The notes beneath the pieces are model-generated. The model worked only from the letters and a program-made list of their open reading frames with translations. It did not search any database and had not been told where the DNA came from. A stretch of 64,000 nt of DNA from Dichetophora obliterata (taxonomy: Eukaryota; Arthropoda; Insecta; Diptera; Sciomyzidae). Every line of letters begins with the position of its first letter. Position 1 is the stretch's first letter. The position numbers and the translations under genes are program-made. The stretch is from the NCBI GenBank assembly GCA_963920525.1, contig OY986438.1:78706560-78770559 (forward strand), read 5' to 3'. Below are positions 7,431 to 37,843 of this stretch, in pieces.

Positions 7431-7487
7431 AACTGGTATGCACTTCGTTTGTTATTTAATTTTCCCTAAAGATGAGCTATAAAATAT

Positions 7488-8876
7488 AATCGGATAAAAA
7501 TTGCTAGAGTTGTGATATTTCAGTTTCCTTATGCCCTTAAAATGTCCTTTCTTGTTGTAAAAAAAAATCTTAAAAATTCAATTTTGAAAAAATTGCAATG
7601 AAATTCTGTTGAAATGTTTTCTGAAAAAAGATTAAATTGAAATACAAAAAATTATGTGATTACGTTGAATAACTTGGTCGTTATGAAATTTTTTACTAGA
7701 AGTGTAACATTTTGCAAATTTTGAGTTTGGGTACTTTTACGAAAAAAATCTTAAAAAATCCAAAAATGCGGAATTTAAAAAAACGAGTGAATCTCGCATA
7801 GTCTTACGCTATTTTGTGCAAAAAACTACAAAAACCAAAATTCTGATGAAAAATATATAGCTGTTGAAACTTGATTTTTTTTTTAAATTCTTAAAGTTCC
7901 TGTTTTTGGCATTTCGAACACACAAAAAAAAATCATAAAAAATCGATAAAATTTTTCTTCGCATTTATAACTACTTCAGTAATTTTAAAAAATATTTTAG
8001 ATATTCCTTAAAAAAATTTAATTCCAGGGATGCCAGATCAGAGCCTAGTTAGTTTTAGGGTAAAAAATATTAAAAAACCCCAAAAATCAACAAATTTAAT
8101 TTTTCACCACCGCCGTTGGTGTCGAAAGCGCTGCTCGATTAAAAAACACTTCCTAATGGAATAAAATATTTAATTAACTTATATTGAATGTAGATTTATT
8201 TTGCAACATTAAATCAATTAAAAATTTAATAAAGCAAATTTTCCGATTTTTTTCCTTAAACTTGGTCATCCTTGGTTTCTGATCCGATTTTGGATATGGT
8301 GTGCTTGTTGGAATGGTGAAAAACAATAATTTACATATTGCGTGAAAATTAAAATTGTTAATTTTTGGGATCTTTTTAATATTTTGTATCCTAAAACCAG
8401 GGTCTGATATTTTGGCAGTCCTGGAATTAAATTTTTTTTAAGGAATATCTAAAATATTTTTTAAAATTATTGAAGTCATTTTAAATGCGAAGAAAAATTA
8501 TCGATTTTTTATGATTTTTTTTTTTTGTGTTCGAAATGCCAAAAACAGGAACTTTAAGATTTTTGAAGATGCCAGAGTCTCCCGTCAAGTCGTTATTTTA
8601 AATTCCGCATTTTTGGATTTTTTAAGATTTTTTTCGTAAAAATACCCTAACTCGAAATTTACAAAATGTTACACTTCTAGTAAAAAATTTCATAACGACC
8701 AAGTTATTCAACGTTATCACATAATTTTTTATATTTGAATTAAATCTTTTTCAACAGAATTTCATTGCAATTTTTTCAAAATTGACTTTTTAAGGTTTTT
8801 GTTTTTACTAAAACAAAAAAAAATGACATTTTTTCAAAAACTGAAATATCACAACTCTAGCAATTTTTATTCGATT
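7488..8876. mobile_element. Hairpin (long-TIR) element of about 1.4 kb
   Basis: The left arm starting AATCGGATAAAAATTGCTAG at 7488 reappears inverted at the right end (CTAGCAATTTTTATTCGATT, ending 8876). Arms of roughly 550-610 bp match with gaps, for example TGATATTTCAG / CTGAAATAT and TTTTACTAGAAGTGTAACAT / its complement. A central loop of about 230 bp (8100-8330) has no coding potential. This is the structure of a non-autonomous fold-back element. The arms have diverged, so it is not recent. No target duplication was identified. Confidence 0.8.
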
Positions 8877-9899
8877 GTTATGTTTAACAACTCATTTTTA
8901 CTTTTACAATTACTTACAATTTGATATTTTTATTGTTTTTGCATCAAAAGGAACGATTTTTCAGCCATCCTTCTTAAGAAAAGTATTTTAGAAAAATAAG
9001 GTCACCCTTAATATGCATACGTATTTAAGTCGCTATATCTGGGGTTGTGCTATTCCGATTAAGTTCGTTTTGAGTCTGGTAGATTGATAATTAGTTGTTT
9101 TTTAATTATATTGTAAAATGTATTTTTGTATGATTTAAAATAAATAAATCAAAATTTAATTAACTTTTTTGACAGCCCAAAAAACCGCGGCATAAGTTTT
9201 TACAAAATACTAAATTCTCAAAAGAATGGAGCGATTTTTTATAGGTTTTATATACTATTTTGTTCACCGCGCATTTTATGTGTGTATTAGACTGTAAAAA
9301 AATAACTTTGTTAATTTTTTGTACGGGTCAAGGGCTTAAATAATTTATAAAGGTGCAAAAACACACCTTAATGTCATTTACCTTGATCACGGGCATAAAA
9401 ACCGTTTTCATTGAATTTTTAGACATTTATTTTAAATCGTAAAAAAATTTACTGTACAATTTAAGAAAAAAAAAAATTATCTATCCAACAGGTAAAAAAA
9501 AAACTAAATTGCAATAGAACAATCCAGATATAGAAGTTGAAGCAACACAGAAATTAAAAAAATGTTGCCATTGTTCACAATTTTGACCGATAAATTGAGT
9601 GAAAAAATTAACTTTATTCTCGTTGATTTCCTCCTGGCAACCGCAAACATAAGTTCATTTGAAATCTGAATACGAACTCAGATTCAACGACCAATTTGAC
9701 ATGAGGATAGAACGTAATTTTCGGGTAGTTTTAATGTCAGTATGAAAATTCATAAATTGGAACTCATCCAGTTTATATAAAGTGTGGTTTCGTTTTTTTA
9801 GTTTTACTATTTTTATGCAAGTACCTTTCATACCAGTGGGGGGCACGGAGATTAAGCAGAAAAGTAGAATTTGACTACATCTATTGTATATTTATTTTT
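8877..9899. other. Non-genic AT-rich stretch
   Basis: I see no gene, RNA or clear repeat here. Short open frames on both strands have no recognisable motif. Confidence 0.4.
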
Positions 9900-12712: not shown

Positions 12713-12962
12713 GCGTCGGAAGCGGGGGGTAAGGTGGGCAGTTGCCCCCCACTTTTTTAGCTAGATAAACAATTTAAAAGGAAAAGTTATTCAAAATATC
12801 ACTTTTTTTACAACGATAATATTTTTGTATTATATATTTTCCTCTTCTTTCTCTCTTCTTCATGTTTCATGTGAAGAAATTTTGGTGAACTTTTTTTGCA
12901 CCACCATTTGTACTGCCCCCCCATTTGTACTGCCCCCCCAGATGAAATTCACTTCCGACGCG
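12713..12962. mobile_element. Small inverted-repeat element with C/G-run ends
   Basis: GCGTCGGAAGCGGGGGG at the left is mirrored by CCCCCCCAGATGAAATTCAC plus TTCCGACGC at the right. ATTG lies just outside the left end, and GATTG directly follows the right end. It is nested in the hAT-like element and non-coding. Its right end carries an internal 18-bp repeat (CCATTTGTACTGCCCCCC twice), and the tandem duplication starting at about 12912 breaks there. Confidence 0.55.
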
Positions 12963-13771
12963 ATTGAATATTAGTCTATGAATTTCCAATACTTGTTCAA
13001 CAGAGATATCAATTCTTTTGATAATAAGATATGTTACAGAAAAACTTGGAAGCCCGCTATAAAATGTGTTTTCTCACCTTGTCCCAAGGACTCAATCGAA
13101 GCCGGATTGAAGCATTGATCCAAACACACTGTTTAATAAAAAATATCGTACTTCACACTGATATTTTAAAACATTACATTATTGAGATTACAGTGACTTT
13201 TTTAAATGATTTAAATAAATGAGTGAAATATCGTGAATGCAGTCAATAATTTCCAACCAAAGATTTGAAAAAATTATTGCATTAATTTTTTTCAAATCAT
13301 TGATTGAGATTTTTAATTTTCAATCACAATCAATGATTTGAAAAATGAATGCAATCACTTTTTCAAATCATTGATTCGGACTTGAAATTTCAAATCACAA
13401 TCAATGATTTGAAAAAATTAATGCAATCATTTTCTCAAATCAATGATTGTGATTTGCAATTTCAAATCACATTCAATGTTTTGGAAAAATGATTGCATTC
13501 ATTTTGAATATAAATCACATGATTTAAAATCACAAATGATTGCATTCTTTTACAGCTCTGCTATGTACATACAATTATAATACGCTCTGCTTGGCATAAT
13601 TTTTATTATTTAATTATTTTTGTTTTTTAGTATGTAGAGTAAATTTATCTATAATTTTGGGATACTTTATCAAATATCTTGTGATATGTAAAAAGAAAAT
13701 ATACATTTATCAACATATTAAATCAACATTAGATGATAACATTTTCTTATTATTTTTTTTTATTTTTGCAG

Positions 13772-14072
13772 AGGACACGTTAAACTAGCCGACTTCGGTT
13801 TGGCACGCCTCTATAATGCAGAGGACCGTGAACGTCCTTATACAAATAAAGTTATTACGTTGTGGTATCGGCCACCGGAACTTTTGCTTGGCGAAGAACG
13901 TTATGGGCCTTCAATTGATGTCTGGTCATGTGGCTGCATTTTGGGTGAACTCTTTCTCAAACGCCCCCTCTTTCAAGCCAATGCTGAAATGGCGCAGTTG
14001 GAAACAATTTCAAAAATATGTGGCTCACCAGTGCCGGCAGTATGGCCAAATGTTATTAAACTGCCACTATTC
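13772..14072 (+). pseudogene. Cdk12: Cdk12-like kinase exon, copy A
   Basis: The exon begins after an acceptor (TTTTTGCAG at 13771) and encodes the centre of a CDK12/13-type cyclin-dependent kinase, the kinase that phosphorylates the RNA polymerase II C-terminal domain. Visible are the Mg-binding DFG in [15 protein letters not shown], the activation segment [20 protein letters not shown] (T-loop Thr in YTNK), and [14 protein letters not shown]. Residues run to [11 protein letters not shown], where family similarity stops. The expected continuation of the C-lobe is missing; the frame runs on into an unrelated tail and stops at 14211-14213. The kinase N-lobe and the rest of the C-lobe are not in the window. 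I call it a duplicated gene fragment rather than a working gene. An authentic exon with far-off neighbours is possible but would still lack a 3' splice donor. Confidence 0.85.
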
Positions 14073-14213
14073 CTCACATGCACATGGAAATGCAGCGGAA
14101 AATGTTTAGCAGTTGTAACAGCAAGCACAACAGCAACTGTGGCTGTCAAATACATACTAAATATAAATATCCTTAGCACTATAATTAATGTTTTAAAATG
14201 GTTGATTGATTGA
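14073..14213 (+). other. Non-homologous tail after Cdk12 exon A
   Basis: From 14073 the kinase frame continues (LTCTWKCSG...) with no family similarity. In the +1 frame the same bases read [14 protein letters not shown] then TAG. That could be the last coding exon and stop of a gene joined out of frame, followed by CAG-rich UTR-like sequence. No GT donor sits at the junction. Confidence 0.35.
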
Positions 14214-14410
14214 TCAATTTGTTAATTATTAAATGAATATTATCAATAGTTTTAATACTTACACTAAAATAACATAATTTTAAATTACTATATTACGTGA
14301 AGTTCATAACTTAAAAAAACTAGGCTAAGTTTTTCATTAAAAAATTTTTGCAAAAAATAATTACTGCAAAACAAATTTTTTTTAGTGCTAACAAAAACTT
14401 TGTATATTTA

Positions 14411-14680
14411 CAGCCCTATTCTGGAAACTTGATAATAGTCAACCAGTATTTTTATTATTTGTTTGTGTTTGTTGTAATTTTTTATTTCAAAACAAAATTT
14501 GAAGCTCAAAAAACAACATTTTTTTATGAAATTGTCAATATCTGAAAAGCAGTTGACAATTTTTATCAACATTTATTATTTTTGAGCTTCAAATTTTGTT
14601 TTGAAATAAAAAATTACAACACACACAAACAAATAATAAAAATACTGGTTGACTATTATCAAGTATCCAGAATAGGGCTG
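14411..14680. mobile_element. MITE, CAGCCC family, 270 bp (copy A)
   Basis: CAGCCCTATTCTGGAAACTT at the left is mirrored at the right end (CCAGAATAGGGCTG). The arms are about 100 bp and nearly perfect (TCAACCAGTATTTTTATTAT and its complement), with a short central loop. It is flanked by TTA on both sides (14408-14410, 14681-14683), a 3-bp target duplication. Non-coding. Related ends occur at 19898 and 62956. Confidence 0.85.
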
Positions 14681-15958
14681 TTAATGAATGAAAATCATCA
14701 TATTATGTTAAAAGCAGTATAGATTTACTGAAATTTAATTTAACGAATAATTCAACACTGTGTAATTAAGTTTTTTATTTGCTAACCTTAAACATTTACA
14801 GTTTAAATGAGCTTTTCGTCTTTCAAATTGAAAAAAAAAAACATTTTTAATGAAACTAGGCAATTGTATTTAATGCCAAGGGTTGATTTTAAAAATAACA
14901 ATTTGTTACTTGATTAAAGTTAAGCTCAATAATGAAAATTTAAATATTTTCTGTTACAATAAATGAGAAATTCTAAAATCTTACACAAAATTGTTATTTT
15001 TTCTAAAAACCAACAAAGCAAGCGGCTTTCAAGAAGAATTATAGTGATAGAAAAACTTAAAATTAAACAATTAGTATATTTTTATAAATTATTGGCATAT
15101 TGCACCACCATTTGTACTGCCCCCCCAGATGAAATTCACTTCCGACGCGATTGAATATTAGTCTATGAATTTCCAATACTTGTTCAACAGAGATATCAAT
15201 TCTTTTGATAATAAGATATGTTACAGAAAAACTTGGAAGCCCGCTATAAAATGTGTTTTCTCACCTTGTCCCAAGGACTCAATCGAAGCCGGATTGAAGC
15301 ATTGATCCAAACACACTGTTTAATAAAAAATATCGTACTTCACACTGATATTTTAAAACATTACATTATTGAGATTACAGTGACTTTTTTAAATGATTTA
15401 AATAAATGAGTGAAATATCGTGAATGCAGTCAATAATTTCCAACCAAAGATTTGAAAAAATTATTGCATTAATTTTTTTCAAATCATTGATTGAGATTTT
15501 AAATTTTCAATCACAATCAATGATTTGAAAAATGAATGCAATCACTTTTTCAAATCATTGATTCGGACTTGAAATTTCAAATCACAATCAATGATTTGAA
15601 AAAATTAATGCAATCATTTTCTCAAATCAATGATTGTGATTTGCAATTTCAAATCACATTCAATGTTTTGGAAAAATGATTGCATTCATTTTGAATATAA
15701 ATCACATGATTTAAAATCACAAATGATTGCATTCTTTTACAGCTCTGCTATGTACATACAATTATAATACGCTCTGCTTGGCATAATTTTTATTATTTAA
15801 TTATTTTTGTTTTTTAGTATGTAGAGTAAATTTATCTATAATTTTGGGATACTTTATCAAATATCTTGTGATATGTAAAAAGAAAATATACATTTATCAA
15901 CATATTAAATCAACATTAGATGATAACATTTTCTTATTATTTTTTTTTATTTTTGCAG

Positions 15959-16259
15959 AGGACACGTTAAACTAGCCGACTTCGGTTTGGCACGCCTCTA
16001 TAATGCAGAGGACCGTGAACGTCCTTATACAAATAAAGTTATTACGTTGTGGTATCGGCCACCGGAACTTTTGCTTGGCGAAGAACGTTATGGGCCTTCA
16101 ATTGATGTCTGGTCATGTGGCTGCATTTTGGGTGAACTCTTTCTCAAACGCCCCCTCTTTCAAGCCAATGCTGAAATGGCGCAGTTGGAAACAATTTCAA
16201 AAATATGTGGCTCACCAGTGCCGGCAGTATGGCCAAATGTTATTAAACTGCCACTATTC
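15959..16259 (+). pseudogene. Cdk12: Cdk12-like kinase exon, copy B
   Basis: This duplicates copy A at an offset of 2187 bp: same acceptor, same DFG, T-loop and VWSCGC motifs, same break after KLPLF, same tail to a stop at 16398-16400. I saw no coding difference between the two. Identity this high means the duplication is recent, or that it is an assembly duplicate. Confidence 0.85.
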
Positions 16260-16597
16260 CTCACATGCACATGGAAATGCAGCGGAAAATGTTTAGCAGT
16301 TGTAACAGCAAGCACAACAGCAACTGTGGCTGTCAAATACATACTAAATATAAATATCCTTAGCACTATAATTAATGTTTTAAAATGGTTGATTGATTGA
16401 TCAATTTGTTAATTATTAAATGAATATTATCAATAGTTTTAATACTTACACTAAAATAACATAATTTTAAATTACTATATTACGTGAAGTTCATAACTTA
16501 AAAAAACTAGGCTAAGTTTTTCATTAAAAAATTTTTGCAAAAAATAATTACTGCAAAACAAATTTTTTTTAGTGCTAACAAAAACTTTGTATATTTA

Positions 16598-16867
16598 CAG
16601 CCCTATTCTGGAAACTTGATAATAGTCAACCAGTATTTTTATTATTTGTTTGTGTTTGTTGTAATTTTTTATTTCAAAACAAAATTTGAAGCTCAAAAAA
16701 CAACATTTTTTTATGAAATTGTCAATATCTGAAAAGCAGTTGACAATTTTTATCAACATTTATTATTTTTGAGCTTCAAATTTTGTTTTGAAATAAAAAA
16801 TTACAACACACACAAACAAATAATAAAAATACTGGTTGACTATTATCAAGTATCCAGAATAGGGCTG
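16598..16867. mobile_element. MITE, CAGCCC family, 270 bp (copy B)
   Basis: This is the second copy of the MITE at 14411-14680, carried along by the tandem duplication rather than by transposition. Confidence 0.85.
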
Positions 16868-17285
16868 TTAATGAATGAAAATCATCATATTATGTTAAAA
16901 GCAGTATAGATTTACTGAAATTTAATTTAACGAATAATTCAACACTGTGTAATTAAGTTTTTTATTTGCTAACCTTAAACATTTACAGTTTAAATGAGCT
17001 TTTCGTCTTTCAAATTGAAAAAAAAAAACATTTTTAATGAAACTAGGCAATTGTATTTAATGCCAAGGGTTGATTTTAAAAATAACAATTTGTTACTTGA
17101 TTAAAGTTAAGCTCAATAATGAAAATTTAAATATTTTCTGTTACAATAAATGAGAAATTCTAAAATCTTACACAAAATTGTTATTTTTTCTAAAAACCAA
17201 CAAAGCAAGCGGCTTTCAAGAAGAATTATAGTGATAGAAAAACTTAAAATTAAACAATTAGTATATTTTTATAAATTATTGGCAT

Positions 17286-24121: not shown

Positions 24122-26026
24122 TTTAACAATCAGCTGTTCAGTTGAGTACGTCACAATATTTAATTTCTTTGAGAAACGTATTGCGATCGGTTGTGTTTCA
24201 TTTAATTCTGTATTTATCGAAGTATATTTGCAAGTTTTTAACTTGAAATTAAAAAAAATGAAGTGTGCAGTTGCTAATTGCGCTAACAGTAGCAAAAAAT
24301 CGGCATCAGAATGCAGCTTGTTTACTTTTCCAGTGAACCTAGAGCTGAGGAAAAAGTGGATTAAATTTTGCCGGCAAAGCAAGGATTTCAGCTTTAAAAC
24401 TTGCTATATTTGCATGGACCACTTTGCAAGAGAAGATTTTGAAAACAGAGTGAAGTTCGAATTGAGTAAGATAGTTATTTGTTACGCTTATTGTGCTTAT
24501 ATTAATGAAAAAGTGTTTACATTTCTTAGGATTTGCAAAAAAAAGGATGCTTAAAGTAGGTGTCGTGCCATCAATTTATAAGCCAGGTGATGAAAATCCG
24601 GAGCGTTCCAAAAGAGTTCAGCGTCGTCGACAGAAAAAAATCGTTTCTGAACTTCTTCGGCAAAGAGATGCTTCTGTATTACAAAAAGGTAATGGTTGTT
24701 AACTATAGTTCAAGATGATATTTAGCTAAATTCAAATTTCAGTTGAATTTATTTTTGATGAAGCGATCGAGGATGCTGGAAAAGAGACTGACCTTCCACA
24801 GGCATTCGAGGGAAATGAGGAGAATTGTGCTCTTGAAGCCAACAGACTTTCTAATGCGTCAGCATTACACGTCCGTCTTGCAAATCGGTCCATGTCAGTA
24901 GAAGAAATCGAAAATTTGCAAGCAAAACTGTAAGTTTAGTTTTCATAAATTTGTAAATTTAAAACTTATGCGTGTATGTATGCAGAGAAACGCTACAAAA
25001 AGAAAAAACATATCGCCAAAAAGAAAACGCAAAACTTCGAAGTGAAGTCACGGCACTGAAACGCAGTCATTGCTCGAAGAAGAAGAATGCTTTCAACATG
25101 GATGTGATGAAAAAGCGTGCATGGAGAGCTGCTTGCAAAAAAATGGAGGAAAAATTAGAAGGGATTTTTACAAAAGGCCAGATAGAGAAGTTGAAGAAAG
25201 GCGTTAAAAGACCAACTTGGAGCGAGAAAGATATAGCCCAATCAATTACCCTGTACGCAGCTGATGCGAAATCTTACAAGTTAATGTATAAAAAGGGCTT
25301 CCCGCTTCCTGGAGTCCGAACATTACAGACATGGTCGCAAAAAATTGATGTTTCCAGAGGGTTATTACAGCCAGTACTAAAATTAATGGCAGCATGTACG
25401 CACATGACTGAAAGACAAAAGCTATCTGTCTTGTGCTTCGATGAGATGAAAGTAAGAAAGACGTACTGCTATGACGCTTCATCTGACTCGACGCTAGCTT
25501 CAGCCAGTTATGTTCAATTATTGATGCTAAGAGGTATATACAAACTTTTATAAAAATTATTACAACTAGCAATCTATGTATATATATGTATGTATATTTT
25601 TCCTTTTAGGCTTAATGTGCAAATGGAAGCAGCCAATTTTTTATGATTTTTTATGATATGACTGCAGGATGACGAATGACATTTTGCAGAACATTTTGCA
25701 AACGACAAAAAAATGTGGATACGGTGTTGTAGCTATTGCATGTGATCTCGGAGGTAGCAATAGATCACTGTTTAATGAGTTAGGTGTACATGAAGACCAG
25801 CCATCGTAATTAATATGTTTGAATTTTTTTATTGATACGTATTAAACCAAGTTATTCTTGCAGGTTTCTTTTCGATGAAGAAATTTTTGTATTCGCTGAC
25901 GTTCCGCATTTAATAAAATTATTAAGAAACCATTTCCTAGATCAAGGATTCATCATTGACGGAAAAGTGGTCAAAAAGGACATAATATTAGAGCTGATGG
26001 CATGCACCTCTAAAGACCCAGTTATA

Positions 26027-26468
26027 ATAGACGTAACATAATGTGGTCTTATGTCAATTGAGCAGTGTGTTCTTTCACTTATTGTTTCAAACAATACTTT
26101 CTTATACAAGTGATTATAATAAACGTAACGTAATGTAACGGAACGTAAAGATCCGTTGGATTTCGATTTCTACGTTACTTTACATTACGTCTGTTCAAAG
26201 AACTAAACATTGAGGTTAGATTCGATTATTGCACTATTTTATGTTGTTGAACTACGCTTTTTGTTGCGATTTCGTTATTAATGTGATAGTTCTATATATC
26301 CACAGCTATGGATGTCGAAGTTTTAATTGAACTTGTACGGGAACGTGCAATTATTTACGACAAAAAACTGCCTGGCTACTGCCTATTATAATTGCTACAA
26401 CGTTTTCTTACATAACGTCCCGTCCCAATGACAGTTGACAACATTTCGTTACATTACATTACGTCTAT
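26027..26468 (+). mobile_element. Small inverted-repeat element carrying a MADF fragment
   Basis: ATAGACGTAACATAATGT at the left and ACATTACATTACGTCTAT at the right form inverted ends, with TATA on each side. Related AACGTAACGTAATG and TTTACATTACGTC motifs lie inside. At about 26309-26385 the + strand reads MDVEVLIELVRERAIIYDKK followed by LPGY, the first helix of a MADF domain (a Myb/SANT-like DNA-binding domain), after which the frame ends. The element interrupts exon 6 of the P-type transposase. A MADF gene is the usual partner of some animal PIF/Harbinger transposases, so this is probably a deletion derivative of such an element. Confidence 0.6.
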
Positions 26469-27390
26469 TATAATTCTATCTTAAAGATCTTAGCATCACG
26501 CATAAGATTACCACAAGCCATCAAAAAGGTAATATTTCTAGACGTATTAGCAAGCATATATCTGTGTAATAATCTCTTTTACTTATCAGACAAATGATTG
26601 GCTCGACGTTATGAACGTCAAAGTGCCTCATGCTGATTCTAGGGCGAGGCGTCACGTTTACGGACTTGCAGCCGATATTCAAAATAAAATATTGGACGAA
26701 ATGTCAGAACTGATGGCAAATATCAGAGTCGTTGGAAGGAATGGACTATTACCCTTTCAAAAAGGTATATCAAAGTGTTAATTACGCTTCAAATTTGGAA
26801 TAAGATGTAGTTGCATAATCTTGTTTTTAATTTTAGGAATTATACAGTCAAATAAGGCCGTCAAAATGTTGCTTGCTAGCCTTCAAAGACGATTCGATGT
26901 CAAGTACATTCTGACGTATCATTTAAACCAGGATGTTCTAGAAAATTTCTTTGGAGTTATTCGCGCTAAAGGTGGGTTGCACGATCACCCCGACCTACAG
27001 GAGTTCAAATATCGGCTTAGATCGCATATTCTTGGGCGCATTGAGGGGGCCATTTCTACTGGTGGTAATGTCGAGGTTGATGATACCCTTGACTTAGAAG
27101 TGTCTCAGCCTTCTCTTACAGGTATTTCCAACTTTCTAATTTTAATACAATGTATTTAAACAGTAATGCAACTTTTTCTATAGCCTAGTACTCTGTTCGT
27201 TTACGTGAAATTTCGCTGGCAACATCTATTTATTTGTTGCGTGAAAATTTTGAAAGATACTATTTTGTTGCGAACAAACGGTTGACGTTCTACTCAAAAA
27301 TTTTGACACAAAAGATATAAAAAGCAGAAAATCACGAAGTTCTTTGATTTTTATATTTTTTTAACATATTAATATAAAAACCGTTCCAGA

Positions 27391-29285
27391 ATGGATATGC
27401 ACGCGGATTATGTTGTTTTTTTTGCAGCTGCACAAATCGTGAATTTATTGCTGCAAGCTGCAGAGATTTGCGAGCGTCCACACCGAGAGCAGGTGCACCC
27501 ATATTTGCAGCAACGTAAGTTAAAAGGACGATTCGCAAAGGATGTAAGTGATTGTTTGGAATTATTTATAATTTATGTAATACATATATTGAATATTTAG
27601 TTCGAAGATTTGGTGCAGTGCAACAAAAGATTCAAGGAAAACTTTCATATGGACTACGAAAGTTTCCAACGAATTTTAAATCTCGTTGAAGTCTCACTGC
27701 AGCCAAAGAGAAAGACACACCCACAGGATGCAATTTCACCCAAAGAAAAATTGGCTATTGTTTTAGAGTAAGTGAAACAATAGTAATGTCTTTCTGAAAT
27801 GCAGTTAGTAAGTAGGAATCAAGCAGTTTATTTCGTTTTGGAGTCAGACGATCTTCTGAAGTTGAGAGGTGTTCGGTATTTGATTGATCTTAGACAAGTT
27901 GTCGTCTGTCGACACTTTATTGTGCCGTACTAAAATAGTGCCGAATGTACAAGAAGTCGAATGATTAGTGCTCAAAATGGATAAATTTTTTTGACGAGGA
28001 CTAATTATTTACAGTACTTGAGGCAAATGACTTTTAGCTTAAATGGCCTTTTTTGTAAAAATGGCCTTTTTTGTAAAAATTTGTATTTGGAGTTAAATAA
28101 GCTAATAGTGTATAAATTAATGGCCACTCTGAAGCAGTTTAAAATTTAAATGATTCCAAAGTTGGAAAAAATGGCTTACAAACTTGCTGTTCAGTCTACC
28201 AACAAAACTAAGATTTATGGGTATTTAAAGAAAGCAAATACAAGTATACTCAACGAAATACCAAATAATCCATGCATATCTATAGAAGATATAACTCTTT
28301 TTGAACTAAGAAAAAGTATTAGATTGTGAATTTTTTGTTTCTTTTGCACCAACTTTTTGGTGAAAATAACGGCAAACAGAAAGTCGTATAGTTTCAAAAG
28401 GTATGCACGGATTTATTTACGGGTGATATCTCGTTGAATAAAATAACCTTCCTTTTGATACGTAAAGAAAGCGTAAAGCCTGCGTAGAAGCAAACCACTA
28501 GTTTTTCATATATACTTTTCTGACTTTGGACCTCTTTAACTCCTAAATCTGTTGAGAGCGGCCATTAATTTTCGAAAAATTTTAATTTTATAAACGGCAT
28601 ATTTTTTACCAACAGATATTTTGCGTGCGGAACATTACAACGATATATATCATCAGTTTACAGCATTAGTAAACAACACTTTGGAAAAATATTAACCGAA
28701 GTTTGCGATGCCATAGTCAGTGGACTGTTAAATGGCAATTTGCAATTTCCTAACGATTCTGGAAATTATGAAAATATTTTTCCTTGTGTTTTCGTCGGCG
28801 ATGATGCGTTTCCACTGCATCCTCGAATAATGAAGCCATATACTCCAGCGAAGAACAAAAAGCTCGAAGATTCTCAACAAATTTTTAATTACAGGCTTAG
28901 CCGAGCACGTAGATGCATTGAAAATGCTTTCGGAATACTGTGCTCTAAATTTTATTGTCTCTCCAAAAAATTATATTGTGCTCCTGAAAGGGCTCGAAAA
29001 ATAATTATTGCGTGCTGCTATTTGCACAATTTTATAATTCGTACTAAAAAAGAACAATATTGTCCTCCGAACTATGCCGATAGTTATAATGAATTTGGAG
29101 AAGTTATAAGAGGAGATCTTCACAGCAATCTTCCACCAGACTCTTTGTTTAACTCGGATATTCATCCAGTCCAAGCTGGCAGACACTCGAATTCGGCTAA
29201 GGACATAAGAGAAAAATTTAAAGTGTATTTTAATTCAGATGCAGGGTCCATCCCCTGGCAACGAAAAGCTGCATTTTTGGAATAA
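27391..29285 (+). pseudogene. PIF/Harbinger transposase with catalytic core deleted
   Basis: Exons read 27391-27543, 27601-27767 and 28616-29285. Domains in order: an N-terminal region (FEDLVQCNKRFKENFHMDY), a helix-turn-helix (SVYSISKQHFGKILTEVCDA), then PCVFVGDDAFPLHPRIMKPY, FNYRLSRARRCIENAFGIL (the last catalytic acidic residue is the Glu in IENAF) and IIIACCYLHNFI. Between NGNLQFPNDSGN and IFPCVFVGDD the family normally has about 100 residues holding the first two catalytic Asp residues (GxxDGxH and the VHDSRxF-type box). Here they are absent, although the frame is kept. The protein would therefore be a catalytically dead DNA-binding derivative. The 848-bp intron at 27768-28615 holds a 19-bp tandem repeat near 28040-28080 and no gene. 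The start at 27391 is the first ATG in frame. Confidence 0.85.
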
Positions 29286-29376
29286 TTTCTTTGACCAAAA
29301 TCTGCATACATACATAATGTAAATTTAATTAATGTTCTACAAAAGGTAAAATGTTTTTATAAAAGTTTACTAATTT

Positions 29377-32300
29377 GTTGACTTTATATGATTTAAATAC
29401 AAATTCTAAATGTTTGATAGTTTAAATCATACTTGATTTTAAATACAAATTCTAGTTGTTTGACAGTTTAAAATCGTTTATCGAGCTTAAGGTCAAAGTT
29501 AGAAACAATTAATTGTTCTAACGAATTTTTCTAAAGAAACAACAACAACAACAAAGTTTTTTCAATATGAAAGGAAAAAAACCACTAGCAAATTGATTTT
29601 ATTGTACAATTTCTGCGTGCTAAACGCGTCATCAGAAATCTTTGTGATTGCCCGTGCAAGCGCGTAGACGCACTGCACCATCGGGGCGATGAGATTTTGA
29701 AGCTTCAATTTCTCATTTTTTCCTTAATTTCATAATGCCACATTTGTTGTTGTATTTCTGTTTTACTTTAGTTTCTATGCCTATATTATATGTAGTCCAA
29801 CAGCCTGCTGGAATTCTGCACTAACAAAGCATGTTTACTGAAGTTGTTTTTAGAATTTTTGCTGATTTTGTTTTTCAGCTGTTTCCGTTTGGTCGAGCTC
29901 TACCATTTGATTAAAGTTTTTTCCTAAATGACCTCTATGTTTATTATGTTGACTTTATATGATTTAAATACAAATTCTAAATGTTTGATAGTTTAAATCA
30001 TACTTGATTTTAAATACAAATTCTAGTTGTTTGACAGTTTAAAATCGTTTATCGAGCTTAAGGTCAAAGTTAGAAACAATTAATTGTTCTAACGAATTTT
30101 TCTAAAGAAACAACAACAACAACAAAGTTTTTTCAATATGAAAGGAAAAAAACCACTAGCAAATTGATTTTATTGTACAATTTCTGCGTGCTAAACGCGT
30201 CATCAGAAATCTTTGTGATTGCCCGTGCAAGCGCGTAGACGCACTGCACCATCGGGGCGATGAGATTTTGAAGCTTCAATTTCTCATTTTTTCCTTAATT
30301 TCATAATGCCACATTTGTTGTTGTATTTCTGTTTTACTTTAGTTTCTATGCCTATATTATATGTAGTCCAACAGCCTGCTGGAATTCTGCACTAACAAAG
30401 CATGTTTACTGAAGTTGTTTTTAGAATTTTTGCTGATTTTGTTTTTCAGCTGTTTCCGTTTGGTCGAGCTCTACCATTTGATTAAAGTTTTTTCCTAAAT
30501 GACCTCTATGTTTATTATGTTGACTTTATATGATTTAAATACAAATTCTAAATGTTTGATAGTTTAAATCATACTTGATTTTAAATACAAATTCTAGTTG
30601 TTTGACAGTTTAAAATCGTTTATCGAGCTTAAGGTCAAAGTTAGAAACAATTAATTGTTCTAACGAATTTTTCTAAAGAAACAACAACAACAACAAAGTT
30701 TTTTCAATATGAAAGGAAAAAAACCACTAGCAAATTGATTTTATTGTACAATTTCTGCGTGCTAAACGCGTCATCAGAAATCTTTGTGATTGCCCGTGCA
30801 AGCGCGTAGACGCACTGCACCATCGGGGCGATGAGATTTTGAAGCTTCAATTTCTCATTTTTTCCTTAATTTCATAATGCCACATTTGTTGTTGTATTTC
30901 TGTTTTACTTTAGTTTCTATGCCTATATTATATGTAGTCCAACAGCCTGCTGGAATTCTGCACTAACAAAGCATGTTTACTGAAGTTGTTTTTAGAATTT
31001 TTGCTGATTTTGTTTTTCAGCTGTTTCCGTTTGGTCGAGCTCTACCATTTGATTAAAGTTTTTTCCTAAATGACCTCTATGTTTATTATGTTGACTTTAT
31101 ATGATTTAAATACAAATTCTAAATGTTTGATAGTTTAAATCATACTTGATTTTAAATACAAATTCTAGTTGTTTGACAGTTTAAAATCGTTTATCGAGCT
31201 TAAGGTCAAAGTTAGAAACAATTAATTGTTCTAACGAATTTTTCTAAAGAAACAACAACAACAACAAAGTTTTTTCAATATGAAAGGAAAAAAACCACTA
31301 GCAAATTGATTTTATTGTACAATTTCTGCGTGCTAAACGCGTCATCAGAAATCTTTGTGATTGCCCGTGCAAGCGCGTAGACGCACTGCACCATCGGGGC
31401 GATGAGATTTTGAAGCTTCAATTTCTCATTTTTTCCTTAATTTCATAATGCCACATTTGTTGTTGTATTTCTGTTTTACTTTAGTTTCTATGCCTATATT
31501 ATATGTAGTCCAACAGCCTGCTGGAATTCTGCACTAACAAAGCATGTTTACTGAAGTTGTTTTTAGAATTTTTGCTGATTTTGTTTTTCAGCTGTTTCCG
31601 TTTGGTCGAGCTCTACCATTTGATTAAAGTTTTTTCCTAAATGACCTCTATGTTTATTATGTTGACTTTATATGATTTAAATACAAATTCTAAATGTTTG
31701 ATAGTTTAAATCATACTTGATTTTAAATACAAATTCTAGTTGTTTGACAGTTTAAAATCGTTTATCGAGCTTAAGGTCAAAGTTAGAAACAATTAATTGT
31801 TCTAACGAATTTTTCTAAAGAAACAACAACAACAACAAAGTTTTTTCAATATGAAAGGAAAAAAACCACTAGCAAATTGATTTTATTGTACAATTTCTGC
31901 GTGCTAAACGCGTCATCAGAAATCTTTGTGATTGCCCGTGCAAGCGCGTAGACGCACTGCACCATCGGGGCGATGAGATTTTGAAGCTTCAATTTCTCAT
32001 TTTTTCCTTAATTTCATAATGCCACATTTGTTGTTGTATTTCTGTTTTACTTTAGTTTCTATGCCTATATTATATGTAGTCCAACAGCCTGCTGGAATTC
32101 TGCACTAACAAAGCATGTTTACTGAAGTTGTTTTTAGAATTTTTGCTGATTTTGTTTTTCAGCTGTTTCCGTTTGGTCGAGCTCTACCATTTGATTAAAG
32201 TTTTTTCCTAAATGACCTCTATGTTTATTATGTTGACTTTATATGATTTAAATACAAATTCTAAATGTTTGATAGTTTAAATCATACTTGATTTTAAATA

Positions 32301-35300
32301 CAAATTCTAGTTGTTTGACAGTTTAAAATCGTTTATCGAGCTTAAGGTCAAAGTTAGAAACAATTAATTGTTCTAACGAATTTTTCTAAAGAAACAACAA
32401 CAACAACAAAGTTTTTTCAATATGAAAGGAAAAAAACCACTAGCAAATTGATTTTATTGTACAATTTCTGCGTGCTAAACGCGTCATCAGAAATCTTTGT
32501 GATTGCCCGTGCAAGCGCGTAGACGCACTGCACCATCGGGGCGATGAGATTTTGAAGCTTCAATTTCTCATTTTTTCCTTAATTTCATAATGCCACATTT
32601 GTTGTTGTATTTCTGTTTTACTTTAGTTTCTGCAACAACAAATGTGGCATTATGAAATTAAGGAAAAAATGAGAAATTGAAGCTTCAAAATCTCATCGCC
32701 CCGATGGTGCAGTGCGTCTACGCGCTTGCACGGGCAATCACAAAGATTTCTGATGACGCGTTTAGCACGCAGAAATTGTACAATAAAATCAATTTGCTAG
32801 TGGTTTTTTTCCTTTCATATTGAAAAAACTTTGTTGTTGTTGTTGTTTCTTTAGAAAAATTCGTTAGAACAATTAATTGTTTCTAACTTTGACCTTAAGC
32901 TCGATAAACGATTTTAAACTGTCAAACAACTAGAATTTGTATTTAAAATCAAGTATGATTTAAACTATCAAACATTTAGAATTTGTATTTAAATCATATA
33001 AAGTCAACATAATAAACATAGAGGTCATTTAGGAAAAAACTTTAATCAAATGGTAGAGCTCGACCAAACGGAAACAGCTGAAAAACAAAATCAGCAAAAA
33101 TTCTAAAAACAACTTCAGTAAACATGCTTTGTTAGTGCAGAATTCCAGCAGGCTGTTGGACTACATATAATATAGGCATAGAAACTAAAGTAAAACAGAA
33201 ATACAACAACAAATGTGGCATTATGAAATTAAGGAAAAAATGAGAAATTGAAGCTTCAAAATCTCATCGCCCCGATGGTGCAGTGCGTCTACGCGCTTGC
33301 ACGGGCAATCACAAAGATTTCTGATGACGCGTTTAGCACGCAGAAATTGTACAATAAAATCAATTTGCTAGTGGTTTTTTTCCTTTCATATTGAAAAAAC
33401 TTTGTTGTTGTTGTTGTTTCTTTAGAAAAATTCGTTAGAACAATTAATTGTTTCTAACTTTGACCTTAAGCTCGATAAACGATTTTAAACTGTCAAACAA
33501 CTAGAATTTGTATTTAAAATCAAGTATGATTTAAACTATCAAACATTTAGAATTTGTATTTAAATCATATAAAGTCAACATAATAAACATAGAGGTCATT
33601 TAGGAAAAAACTTTAATCAAATGGTAGAGCTCGACCAAACGGAAACAGCTGAAAAACAAAATCAGCAAAAATTCTAAAAACAACTTCAGTAAACATGCTT
33701 TGTTAGTGCAGAATTCCAGCAGGCTGTTGGACTACATATAATATAGGCATAGAAACTAAAGTAAAACAGAAATACAACAACAAATGTGGCATTATGAAAT
33801 TAAGGAAAAAATGAGAAATTGAAGCTTCAAAATCTCATCGCCCCGATGGTGCAGTGCGTCTACGCGCTTGCACGGGCAATCACAAAGATTTCTGATGACG
33901 CGTTTAGCACGCAGAAATTGTACAATAAAATCAATTTGCTAGTGGTTTTTTTTCCTTTCATATTGAAAAAACTTTGTTGTTGTTGTTGTTTCTTTAGAAA
34001 AATTCGTTAGAACAATTAATTGTTTCTAACTTTGACCTTAAGCTCGATAAACGATTTTAAACTGTCAAACAACTAGAATTTGTATTTAAAATCAAGTATG
34101 ATTTAAACTATCAAACATTTAGAATTTGTATTTAAATCATATAAAGTCAACATAATAAACATAGAGGTCATTTAGGAAAAAACTTTAATCAAATGGTAGA
34201 GCTCGACCAAACGGAAACAGCTGAAAAACAAAATCAGCAAAAATTCTAAAAACAACTTCAGTAAACATGCTTTGTTAGTGCAGAATTCCAGCAGGCTGTT
34301 GGACTACATATAATATAGGCATAGAAACTAAAGTAAAACAGAAATACAACAACAAATGTGGCATTATGAAATTAAGGAAAAAATGAGAAATTGAAGCTTC
34401 AAAATCTCATCGCCCCGATGGTGCAGTGCGTCTACGCGCTTGCACGGGCAATCACAAAGATTTCTGATGACGCGTTTAGCACGCAGAAATTGTACAATAA
34501 AATCAATTTGCTAGTGGTTTTTTTCCTTTCATATTGAAAAAACTTTGTTGTTGTTGTTGTTTCTTTAGAAAAATTCGTTAGAACAATTAATTGTTTCTAA
34601 CTTTGACCTTAAGCTCGATAAACGATTTTAAACTGTCAAACAACTAGAATTTGTATTTAAAATCAAGTATGATTTAAACTATCAAACATTTAGAATTTGT
34701 ATTTAAATCATATAAAGTCAACATAATAAACATAGAGGTCATTTAGGAAAAAACTTTAATCAAATGGTAGAGCTCGACCAAACGGAAACAGCTGAAAAAC
34801 AAAATCAGCAAAAATTCTAAAAACAACTTCAGTAAACATGCTTTGTTAGTGCAGAATTCCAGCAGGCTGTTGGACTACATATAATATAGGCATAGAAACT
34901 AAAGTAAAACAGAAATACAACAACAAATGTGGCATTATGAAATTAAGGAAAAAATGAGAAATTGAAGCTTCAAAATCTCATCGCCCCGATGGTGCAGTGC
35001 GTCTACGCGCTTGCACGGGCAATCACAAAGATTTCTGATGACGCGTTTAGCACGCAGAAATTGTACAATAAAATCAATTTGCTAGTGGTTTTTTTCCTTT
35101 CATATTGAAAAAACTTTGTTGTTGTTGTTGTTTCTTTAGAAAAATTCGTTAGAACAATTAATTGTTTCTAACTTTGACCTTAAGCTCGATAAACGATTTT
35201 AAACTGTCAAACAACTAGAATTTGTATTTAAAATCAAGTATGATTTAAACTATCAAACATTTAGAATTTGTATTTAAATCATATAAAGTCAACATAATAA

Positions 35301-35900
35301 ACATAGAGGTCATTTAGGAAAAAACTTTAATCAAATGGTAGAGCTCGACCAAACGGAAACAGCTGAAAAACAAAATCAGCAAAAATTCTAAAAACAACTT
35401 CAGTAAACATGCTTTGTTAGTGCAGAATTCCAGCAGGCTGTTGGACTACATATAATATAGGCATAGAAACTAAAGTAAAACAGAAATACAACAACAAATG
35501 TGGCATTATGAAATTAAGGAAAAAATGAGAAATTGAAGCTTCAAAATCTCATCGCCCCGATGGTGCAGTGCGTCTACGCGCTTGCACGGGCAATCACAAA
35601 GATTTCTGATGACGCGTTTAGCACGCAGAAATTGTACAATAAAATCAATTTGCTAGTGGTTTTTTTTCCTTTCATATTGAAAAAACTTTGTTGTTGTTGT
35701 TGTTTCTTTAGAAAAATTCGTTAGAACAATTAATTGTTTCTAACTTTGACCTTAAGCTCGATAAACGATTTTAAACTGTCAAACAACTAGAATTTGTATT
35801 TAAAATCAAGTATGATTTAAACTATCAAACATTTAGAATTTGTATTTAAATCATATAAAGTCAACATAATAAACATAGAGGTCATTTAGGAAAAAACTTT
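29377..35900. repeat. Fold-back array of a 571-bp tandem repeat in two inverted arms
   Basis: The left arm (29377-32607) is 5.7 tandem copies of a 571-bp unit; the unit start TTGACTTTATATG recurs at 29378, 29949, 30520, 31091, 31662 and 32233. After a 25-nt loop (32608-32632), CAACAACAAATGTGG starts the right arm (32633-35900), which is the same array in reverse complement. Arms are almost identical; two right-arm units (near 33951 and 35660) have one extra T in a T-run, which opens spurious 63-codon frames. The 13-mer AGTTTACTAATTT lies on both outer sides (29364-29376 and 35901-35913), as a target duplication would. The right arm reaches about 38 bp further out than the left. No coding frame is conserved in the unit. 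This architecture is that of Foldback elements; an assembly or sequencing palindrome is the alternative. Confidence 0.95.
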
Positions 35901-36384
35901 AGTTTACTAATTTTTCATTATTTTATCTTTAATAATTACTGCAGATAACCAAATGAAAACAGAAGAATTGTATAATGATCTAACAGTGACGCTGTTCTGT
36001 AGTGCGCAAATCCACAATACTACCTCAGGTGACTGCGATAAAGCAAGTGCAGTCACCGAAAACACACATACTATCTACAAATGACTCTGTCAAAGCTGCT
36101 TCTAAGCTCTGACATTCAAAAATCAGAAAACGATTTTTATATCTGCAATTGTTATTATTAAATTTTATCTGAAAAATATAAATTATCATACATTGTTTTG
36201 GAGTTTATGAGATCTTTTGCAATTTTAATGACGTTGCTGTGTAGTAGAGGTAGGCTTGATTTTTCTTACTTTTTGACTTGGAGTGAGTTAAAACAACATT
36301 AAAAACTTCTTTTAATTCATAGTTGTATATTTCTTATTGAAATAATTTTGTTCTTCTTTTTTATAAGGTGAAAATATTTGATAT

Positions 36385-37843
36385 TTAATTATAATTTATT
36401 TTGTGCAGCTCATCGTAAGCCATCGCAACAAATTTGGCCCCTAATTCGTTGGCAGTTGAATCCGGCAGCTGCTCAATAATTGAGCCTAAATGAGCCAGGA
36501 GGTGATGATGCTTTAACTTGGCTACCTCATTTTTTCGCATCTCTAAAACTGTGGCCATTTGCTCTACCACTTTGTCAGCAGTAGCTTGCAGTACATTTAT
36601 TTGTGAACGACTTGTGCTGGGCGTGCTAGGTGTTGACAACTAAAATGAAAAAATTTAGTAAATTCTGTGCAGATAAGCAATAAAAGCTTAAGTCTGTTTT
36701 CGAATTTTTGAGAAATGTTGCTTTAAAGTTTTCAATCTATAAGCTATATGAAAGGGACTTTTGTGTTTGTGTCACAACTTTGGCTGCCGTCGTGCTCCTG
36801 ATTTTGTTCGATTATATTAATATGTATATGTATTAGGGCGGGTCAATTTGTATGGACGAATTTTTTGGTGGTCTGGCTCAGCGAAATTCGTAAAATACAT
36901 GTAATGTCAAGACTTTTTCTCCACTACAGCATATACAAATTCTGAAAAAAAGCTGTGCGGACTTTCGTAAATAGATTTTGTTCTCAATTATAAAATATGA
37001 ATGTATGAATGTATTTGTATGAATCTATTTACGAAAGTCCGCACAGCTTTTTTTCAGAATTTGTATATGCTGTAGTGGAGAAAAAGTCTTGAAATTACAT
37101 GTATTTTACGAATTTCGCTGAGCCAGAATTTGACCCGCCCTAATATGTATAATATACATATACATTGTATATGAATGAAACACATCTACATCAATAACTA
37201 TCTAAAGTCGGCTTAAGCTGTTATTGCTAATCTACACAGAATTATCGATAGCAAAAAACTTAAGCATAATTACATACAATGAATACGTCGGTTCTGGCTG
37301 AACAGTTAAATTATCGTTTTGCATCGTAGAATAAGTTCTGAAATGCAAGTATATGTATGCGTATGTTAAATTAACAATTTTATTTTTCAATAAAAAATAT
37401 TTTAACTTACACTCTTTGTGTAGAAGTATCACATATAAATGACATCTCTTCTGAAAAATTCCACGCTTCTGTTGATATCTCATCTTCAACGTCATCAAGT
37501 TCCAAATCACATGCGCTGCTGGATTTTTTGGACTTTTTGGCATGGTATCGCTTGCTGTCTCGCAAGCTTTTGCATGCAGCCTTGCAGTCTTCTACTGTAA
37601 AATTAAAAAAAAAAACATTACAAAACTTACAAGCAAACTAATAAATAACTTACCGCTTTTATTTATTTCGGCACTAATACTGGCCCAAGCATTGTTTACT
37701 GCATTTCTATTGCTGTGCTACTTTGATTGCTTGTCCCATATTATATTTAGTCGCTTTATGGAACATATCAACCTCTTTTTTTCCTCATCACTGAGCTGGT
37801 CCTTCCTTCTTTTGATAAGATTTATGTCCACTGCAATATTTAA
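36385..37843 (-). pseudogene. MADF/BESS gene of the Harbinger element
   Basis: Minus-strand exons: 37654-37843, 37411-37594 and 36385-36639. The first reads VDINLIKRRKDQLSDEEKKR and LNIIWDKQSK, then TAG, then HSNRNAVNNAWASISAEI. The second continues VEDCKAACKSLRDSKRYHAK, an acidic stretch (DLELDDVEDEISTEAW) and SEEMSFICDTSTQR. Together these form a MADF domain (tryptophan pattern with CxxxWxSLRD-type helix 3). The last exon has LLAHLGSIIEQLPDSTANEL and FVAMAYDEL, a BESS-like protein-interaction motif, ending KINYN. A stop in exon 1 and a one-base phase clash between exons 2 and 3 suggest decay. In Harbingers the partner protein helps import or position the transposase. No clear first exon with ATG was found. 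Confidence 0.7.
36836..37140. mobile_element. MITE, GGGCGGGTCAA family, 305 bp
   Basis: GGGCGGGTCAATTTG at the left is mirrored by TTTGACCCGCCC at the right, with TA on both sides. Arms of about 130 bp are close to perfect (TCTCCACTACAGCATATACA / TGTATATGCTGTAGTGGAGA; GAAAGTCCGCACAGC). It sits in the last intron of the MADF/BESS gene. The TA duplication would suit Tc1/mariner mobilisation. Confidence 0.8.

Follow-up and report, generated by a model that had tools for sequence, protein, structure and literature searches.

The window analysed here is a stretch of 64,000 nt from Dichetophora obliterata (GCA_963920525.1, contig OY986438.1, positions 78,706,560-78,770,559, forward strand). Directly behind a Harbinger-type transposase frame it contains an inserted fold-back whose two arms are built of a 571-bp tandem repeat. 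Unit positions are counted from AGAAACTAAAG, and 'sense' refers to the plus strand of the right arm. The locus has the following features:

28740..29285, plus strand: DDE_Tnp_4 (Harbinger-type) transposase frame; the insert lies in the 3' part of the element copy that carries this frame
29364..29376, no strand: left copy of the target duplication, 13 bp, AGTTTACTAATTT; present as a single copy at the paralogous sites L089 (exact) and L090 (two mismatches)
29377..35900, no strand: the whole inserted element, 6,524 bp, a probable head-to-head retrozyme array
29377..32631, minus strand: left arm, 5.7 units, with the minus strand as sense strand; its outer (sense 3') end is of type A, at unit position 400 (..GTCAAC), and its inner end is at unit position 1
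29580..29649, minus strand: the hammerhead-like motif nearest to the outer end of the left arm; cleavage is predicted between 29600 and 29599
32608..32632, no strand: unduplicated centre at the junction of both arms, 25 nt
32633..35900, plus strand: right arm, 5.7 units, with the plus strand as sense strand; its outer (sense 3') end is of type B, at unit position 435 (..GGAAAAAACTTT), and its inner end is at unit position 25
32736..32805, plus strand: first type I hammerhead-like motif of the right arm, with CTGATGA at 32750 and predicted cleavage after 32785, recurring every 571 bp
35866..35900, plus strand: extra 35-nt end of the right arm past the A site, corresponding to the Penelope 'tail' (PMC11167929)
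35901..35913, no strand: right copy of the target duplication, 13 bp, AGTTTACTAATTT

Comparison of the window with itself showed that positions 29373-35870 are 99.63% identical to their own reverse complement over 6,502 aligned bases, and that the 571-bp period is continuous in both arms (5.71 and 5.72 units). An exact inverted repeat of 6.5 kb is far beyond chance. The arms measure 3,259 and 3,269 bp and, with one real unit of the window as reference, neither of them has a single substitution; the sole changes within them are two 1-nt T-run insertions, both in the right arm. An earlier note on this DNA had described a near-perfect 571-bp fold-back with a 25-nt loop, arms that differ only in T runs and a 13-bp direct repeat on both outer sides. 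This description was confirmed, including the exact outer coordinates of the direct repeat, with one more 1-nt difference at the outer left end, within the target repeat. The offset between the outer ends of the arms, put at about 38 bp in that note, was found to be 35 nt (unit positions 400 and 435), and the argument that such an offset speaks against a mirror artefact still holds. No frame of at least 110 aa overlaps the element.

The right flank of the insert has two relatives in the same genome, with 90% and 87% identity. When short stretches were aligned to the joined flanks of the window, L089 and L090 were identified as paralogous sites that are continuous across the target and do not contain the 6.5-kb element. 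L089 carries the exact 13-mer and also a 26-bp gap elsewhere in the left flank, and L090 carries the 13-mer with two mismatches. As two paralogous sites lack the element, the fold-back is an insertion and not an artefact, and it is a young one. The near-perfect mirror symmetry, taken at the window locus alone, would be compatible with a palindrome made during sequencing or assembly, but this is extremely unlikely given the differing flanks, the exact target repeat, the offset ends, the two empty sites and the recurrence of the same layout, with other arm lengths, at 27 further mapped loci.

These loci were found by searching the unit against its own genome (1.31 Gb, 76 contigs), which gave 125 matches from the best 40 of 618 candidates; because the best-scoring 40 were examined, the sample leans to the youngest copies. 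In total 35 near-identical loci were mapped, the window included, with two stretches that proved to be the same locus counted once, and after the divergent older pieces beside L045 and L062 had been excluded. Two arms were present in 28 loci and one arm in seven, among them L065, whose single arm extends beyond the fetched stretch. All 28 two-armed loci have the minus-then-plus layout with the sense 3' ends outward. Both outer ends could be typed in 26 of them, and each of these 26 has one A end (at about 400) and one B end (at about 435), with A on the left in 15 loci and B on the left in 11. The two other loci each have one outer end at neither site; L012 shows a 9-bp repeat and L043 no target repeat. 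Arms span 0.14 to 11.5 units across the mapped loci. Where both ends of a two-armed locus could be typed (26 loci), the range is 0.24 to 9.4 units, and the arms of one locus vary independently. At the centre junctions the BLAST pieces overlap by 1-22 bp in 10 of the 26 loci and leave gaps of 1-17 bp in 16.

Other copies flanked by 13-bp duplications, for which the earlier note had suggested a genome search, are common: an exact target repeat of 12-16 bp was detected in 30 of the 35 loci (13 bp in 18, 14 bp in eight, 12 bp in three and 16 bp in one). It is present in all 26 typed two-armed loci, with an A+T content of 91%, and, being the longest exact match near the ends, may include 1-2 bases of microhomology. 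No exact repeat of at least 8 bp was found at L040, L043, L053 and L065 among the mapped loci. In raw counts, 12 of the 26 loci have AAT on the B side and 11 have ATT on the A side.

Drosophila Foldback elements have long inverted repeats built of subrepeats and 9-bp duplications, and the earlier note had considered a new Foldback-like family with a 13-bp duplication. The genuine insertion, the existence of a family and the 13-bp type of duplication were borne out, but the assignment to Foldback was not. A DNA transposon of this type would explain the general look of the loci, with inverted repeats of tandem subrepeats beside a target duplication. However, the family differs from it in the length of the duplication (mode 13 bp, not 9), in its ends, which are unlike in 26 of 26 loci, in its one-armed copies (7 of 35), in its freely varying arm lengths and in its hammerhead-like motif. 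On the features tested the Foldback reading was rejected, and its probability is close to nil.

In LINE-1 twin priming two primers act on one RNA and give an inverted product, the second priming being internal and variable. In the present family, by contrast, all 26 typed loci have their second end at the other of the two fixed sites, and LINE-type twin priming, by which the second site would be anywhere, was rejected.

The earlier note had also proposed a palindrome made by hairpin replication. A multi-unit cDNA that folds back and copies itself would give equal arms and a small loop, as seen in the near-equal arms and 25-nt centre of the window locus, and self-priming has been proposed for palindromes of Penelope-like elements (PLEs; PMC3846280, partial text). 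Of the 26 loci, three have arms equal to within 60 bp, a little more than expected from re-pairing (p 0.046), but in the other 23 the arms differ by more than 60 bp, and by up to 4.6 kb. Inner ends lie within 30 nt of each other in only 4 of 26 loci (p 0.33), and back-copying predicts like ends, whereas the ends are 35 nt apart in 26 of 26. Arm lengths were not significantly correlated over 27 loci including L043 (Spearman 0.27, p 0.17), and A arms tended to be longer in the same set (p 0.026). Because arm lengths within a locus are mostly very unequal and the outer ends are offset by 35 nt, self-copying of a hairpin is unsupported; it is disfavoured at the level of the family and we regard it as very unlikely. 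The near-equal arm lengths of the window locus are best taken as a coincidence: both arms happen to be 5.7 units long, so that the product resembles a near-perfect palindrome.

Additionally, we aligned about 189 units to one reference unit and counted substitutions at positions covered by at least 3 units and at least 12 nt from the arm ends. Of 25 locus-specific substitutions, 14 were found in every unit of the locus, nine in a single unit and two in an intermediate number of units. Two of the nine singletons, both in L056, are close to a junction. The intermediate cases are one in 13 of 14 units of L054, the remaining unit being altered in run length at that position, and one in 2 of 6 units of L062, beside a G/A run. 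Among the recurrent substitutions covered by both arms, 11 of 13 were present in all units of both arms. All 8 units of L029 carry T111C, all 12 units of L055 and all 10 of L056 carry A215T, and all 12 units of the single-arm locus L065 carry G313A. Run lengths vary from unit to unit, chiefly in the T run near 195, as copying slippage would produce. In L050 a 1-nt deletion at 424 is present in three of four left-arm units and in neither of the two right-arm units, which speaks for a change of template. With 14 of 25 substitutions array-wide and nine confined to single units, the pattern suggests that a single monomer, likely circular, served as template. It is explained if this monomer was copied repeatedly, for which a circle would be the simplest form.

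The main rival to a circular template is a linear one, a multimeric transcript from an array whose units were already alike, likewise primed on both strands in the manner of PLEs, with the hammerhead as a passenger and no circle. In favour of it, a lizard PLE inserts unprocessed RNA in vitro and hammerhead mutants are without effect (PMC11167929), and the hammerhead-like motif of the unit is not recognised by Rfam. Copying of a multimer should, however, transmit the singletons (9 of 25) as mixtures at the same offset in both arms, and the variants were nearly always found in one unit or in all units. We consider a linear template unlikely.

The sense strand of each unit contains GAUUU-CUGAUGA, a GCG/CGC stem-loop, GAAA, a three-pair stem with a GUAC loop, A and AAAUC. 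The motif is enclosed by an outer stem AAUCAC/GUGGUU, which gives it a type I layout with cleavage predicted after unit position 177. A motif descriptor that allows a mismatch at the base of stem II, composed post hoc with the motif already seen, matched the unit and 0 of 20,000 dinucleotide-preserving shuffles on both strands. Rfam hammerhead models gave no match in left-arm units or in 20 older copies (E up to 10 in both cases), nor in the window at the gathering score. In the young family the base of stem II is a C.A mismatch (unit positions 149 and 163). A search for an older subfamily, which diverges from L045:295-1148 by about 10-20%, gave 6,098 first-look candidates, far above the 618 of the young family; 40 were scored and 20 copies (L068-L087) were sampled from the best matches. 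In these 20 copies CTGATGA is kept in all and GAAA in 19, stem II is GCC/GGC instead of GCG/CGC in 15, and the stem II base is A.C in 18, A-U in L069 and G-C in L084. Between young C.A and old A.C both sides of the base were altered and the mismatch was retained. A U.U mismatch is reported at this place in an axolotl retrozyme, whose cleavage is much more efficient in the dimeric form (PMC7229834, partial text). Judged by its sequence, the 571-nt unit RNA is a candidate for ribozyme cleavage.

Searching the genome with the Pfam GIY-YIG model yielded one match, which is no census of PLEs, and these were therefore sought with a motif probe. This probe gave 150 scored matches among 858 candidates (E up to 0.004); as far as this motif identifies them, PLE genes are abundant in the genome. 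Among PLE neighbours less than 20 kb apart there are seven pairs on opposite strands, all seven minus-then-plus, and ten pairs on the same strand, five of them from one array on contig C8. On this contig, six PLE-motif matches form a regular array at about 91,600-168,300 with a period of about 15.3 kb. One tandem PLE period (L088) combines RVT_1 (2e-11) with GIY-YIG (4.8e-5, 24.0 bits, cut-off 22.6). Upstream of its frame is CTGATGAG-GTGCAT..ATGCAC-GAAAC, which resembles the minimal PLE hammerheads of PMC7761336 (partial text) and is accepted by neither Rfam nor our descriptor. Comparison of the 571-bp unit with this one PLE period gave only chance-level matches (best BLAST E 0.025).

The protein of the lizard PLE starts reverse transcription at two adjacent sites, with a spacing that equals the 30-40 bp genomic tail, prefers ATT, and cleaves and extends both strands (PMC11167929). 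In the rotifer, Penelope copies lie head-to-head and one of the inverted ends bears the tail (PMC3846280, partial text), and PLEs have been proposed as a 'strong candidate' for the movers of animal retrozymes (PMC7229834, partial text). The head-to-head layout is common to the array family (28 of 28 two-armed loci) and to PLEs of the same genome (7 of 7 opposite-strand pairs), and the outer ends are about 35 nt apart, within the 30-40 nt of the PLE tail, in 26 of 26 typed two-armed loci. By analogy, the 35-nt step, the A+T-rich duplications and the two-armed layout appear to agree with the behaviour of the lizard PLE.

We think it likely that the fold-back is a retrozyme-type element inserted by PLE machinery and primed from both cut strands, with a presumed circular RNA, self-cleavage and a helper enzyme. 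This reading starts from the insertion, the duplication, the two fixed ends, the head-to-head arms and the shared monomer variants, all of which were observed directly. The hammerhead would excise a 571-nt sense RNA from longer transcripts, and the RNA would close into a circle. An endonuclease, presumably the GIY-YIG enzyme of a PLE, would cut the AT-rich target on both strands about 13 bp apart, the stagger that the duplication records. The freed 3' ends would then prime reverse transcription, each target strand using one of the two fixed sites, which are separated by about 35 nt; both ends are observed, and priming of both strands may have occurred in one event. If the template is a circle, both reverse transcripts could make differing numbers of turns on it, producing multi-unit arms in which the substitutions of the monomer recur. 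The cDNA ends would finally be joined at a variable centre, which would yield the observed head-to-head fold-back with its sense 3' ends outward. A possible reason for the rule of one end of each type is that a first primer started at A leaves the downstream RNA with B free for the second. For the window insertion, the template was probably a small self-cutting circular RNA, round which copying proceeded several times from either side of a single DNA break. More specifically, and with a slight preference on our part, a Penelope-type dimer may be at work, in which two reverse transcriptases, each primed by one strand of the break staggered by about 13 bp, copy the same 571-nt circle from sites 35 nt apart, one per strand, for up to at least 9 turns, and the cDNAs are joined head to head, as a two-headed rolling-circle retrotransposition. 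Points against the PLE and retrozyme reading are the silence of Rfam, the mismatched stem II base, the lack of a sequence link between the unit and L088 and the lone genomic match to Pfam GIY-YIG. The L050 deletion, the L062 change in 2 of 6 units and the outer ends of neither type in L012 and L043 are exceptions to it. It is also in tension with the in vitro results of PMC11167929, where start sites are alike on both strands and hammerhead cleavage is dispensable.

Like retrozymes, the family consists of tandem non-coding repeats of a few hundred bp dispersed over many loci. Metazoan retrozymes lack LTR, PBS and PPT, and have target duplications of more than 4 bp, here 12-16 bp in 30 of 35 loci, and a type I hammerhead in each unit; here the motif and its putative helices are present, with Rfam silent and the stem II base mismatched. 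They are expressed as circular RNA, at which the one-monomer pattern of the present arrays may hint indirectly. In the axolotl, non-LTR retrozymes likewise show a mismatched stem II base together with a short stem III capped by a tetraloop, but metazoan retrozymes measure about 170-400 nt, compared with 571 nt here (PMC7229834, partial text). The present arrays are head-to-head with two fixed outer ends, and the terms 'inverted' and 'head-to-head' are absent from the available text of PMC7229834. PLEs (green anole PAc, PMC11167929; rotifer Penelope, PMC3846280, partial text) are likewise head-to-head with a 30-40 bp tail at one inverted end, and likewise occur in tandem copies. Their targets are AT-rich and are cleaved on both strands at ATT, and they have a hammerhead motif, with possible counterparts here in the A+T-rich duplications and the hammerhead-like motif. 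However, PLEs encode a reverse transcriptase and GIY-YIG, whereas the 571-bp unit is non-coding and contains neither reverse transcriptase nor endonuclease; the present arms, unlike those of PLEs, comprise many full turns; and the duplications of rotifer Penelope are 8-10 bp (PMC3846280, partial text), compared with mostly 13 bp here.

Retrozymes, PLE tails and a PLE tail at one of two inverted ends (the latter in PMC3846280, partial text) are already known; what is new is that retrozymes and PLE tails come together in head-to-head arrays in which each arm has one start site and each insertion a single monomer. A limited literature search found no report of head-to-head retrozyme arrays. The interpretation as Foldback element or replication palindrome should yield to that of a non-autonomous, hammerhead-bearing retroelement with Penelope-style priming of both strands. 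The array copies bear the Penelope tail signature and suggest two rules that can be tested in any genome, namely that an arm has one start site and that an insertion has one monomer sequence. The latter rule would amount to a footprint, left in DNA, of a circular RNA template, and would account for the homogeneity of hammerhead satellites.

Elsewhere in the window, an R2 retrotransposon RNA element (RF00524) was matched at 2780-2994 on the plus strand (60.9 bits, E 1.3e-9), following a broken RVT_1 frame (475-2063). R2 normally resides in 28S rDNA, which makes this match odd. Two frames at 24972-27159 match TNP-like RNase H domains, the N part with 23.2 bits, below the cut-off of 24.6, and the C part with 29.4 bits, above it; they are perhaps a P-element-type relic. 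Further inverted repeats or palindromes of 81-89% identity, which look MITE-like, are located at 7467-8900, 36872-37127, 61952-62176 and 62955-63177. A 2,188-bp tandem duplication at 12911-17285 has 99.8% identity and carries the same 137-aa protein-kinase fragment in both copies.
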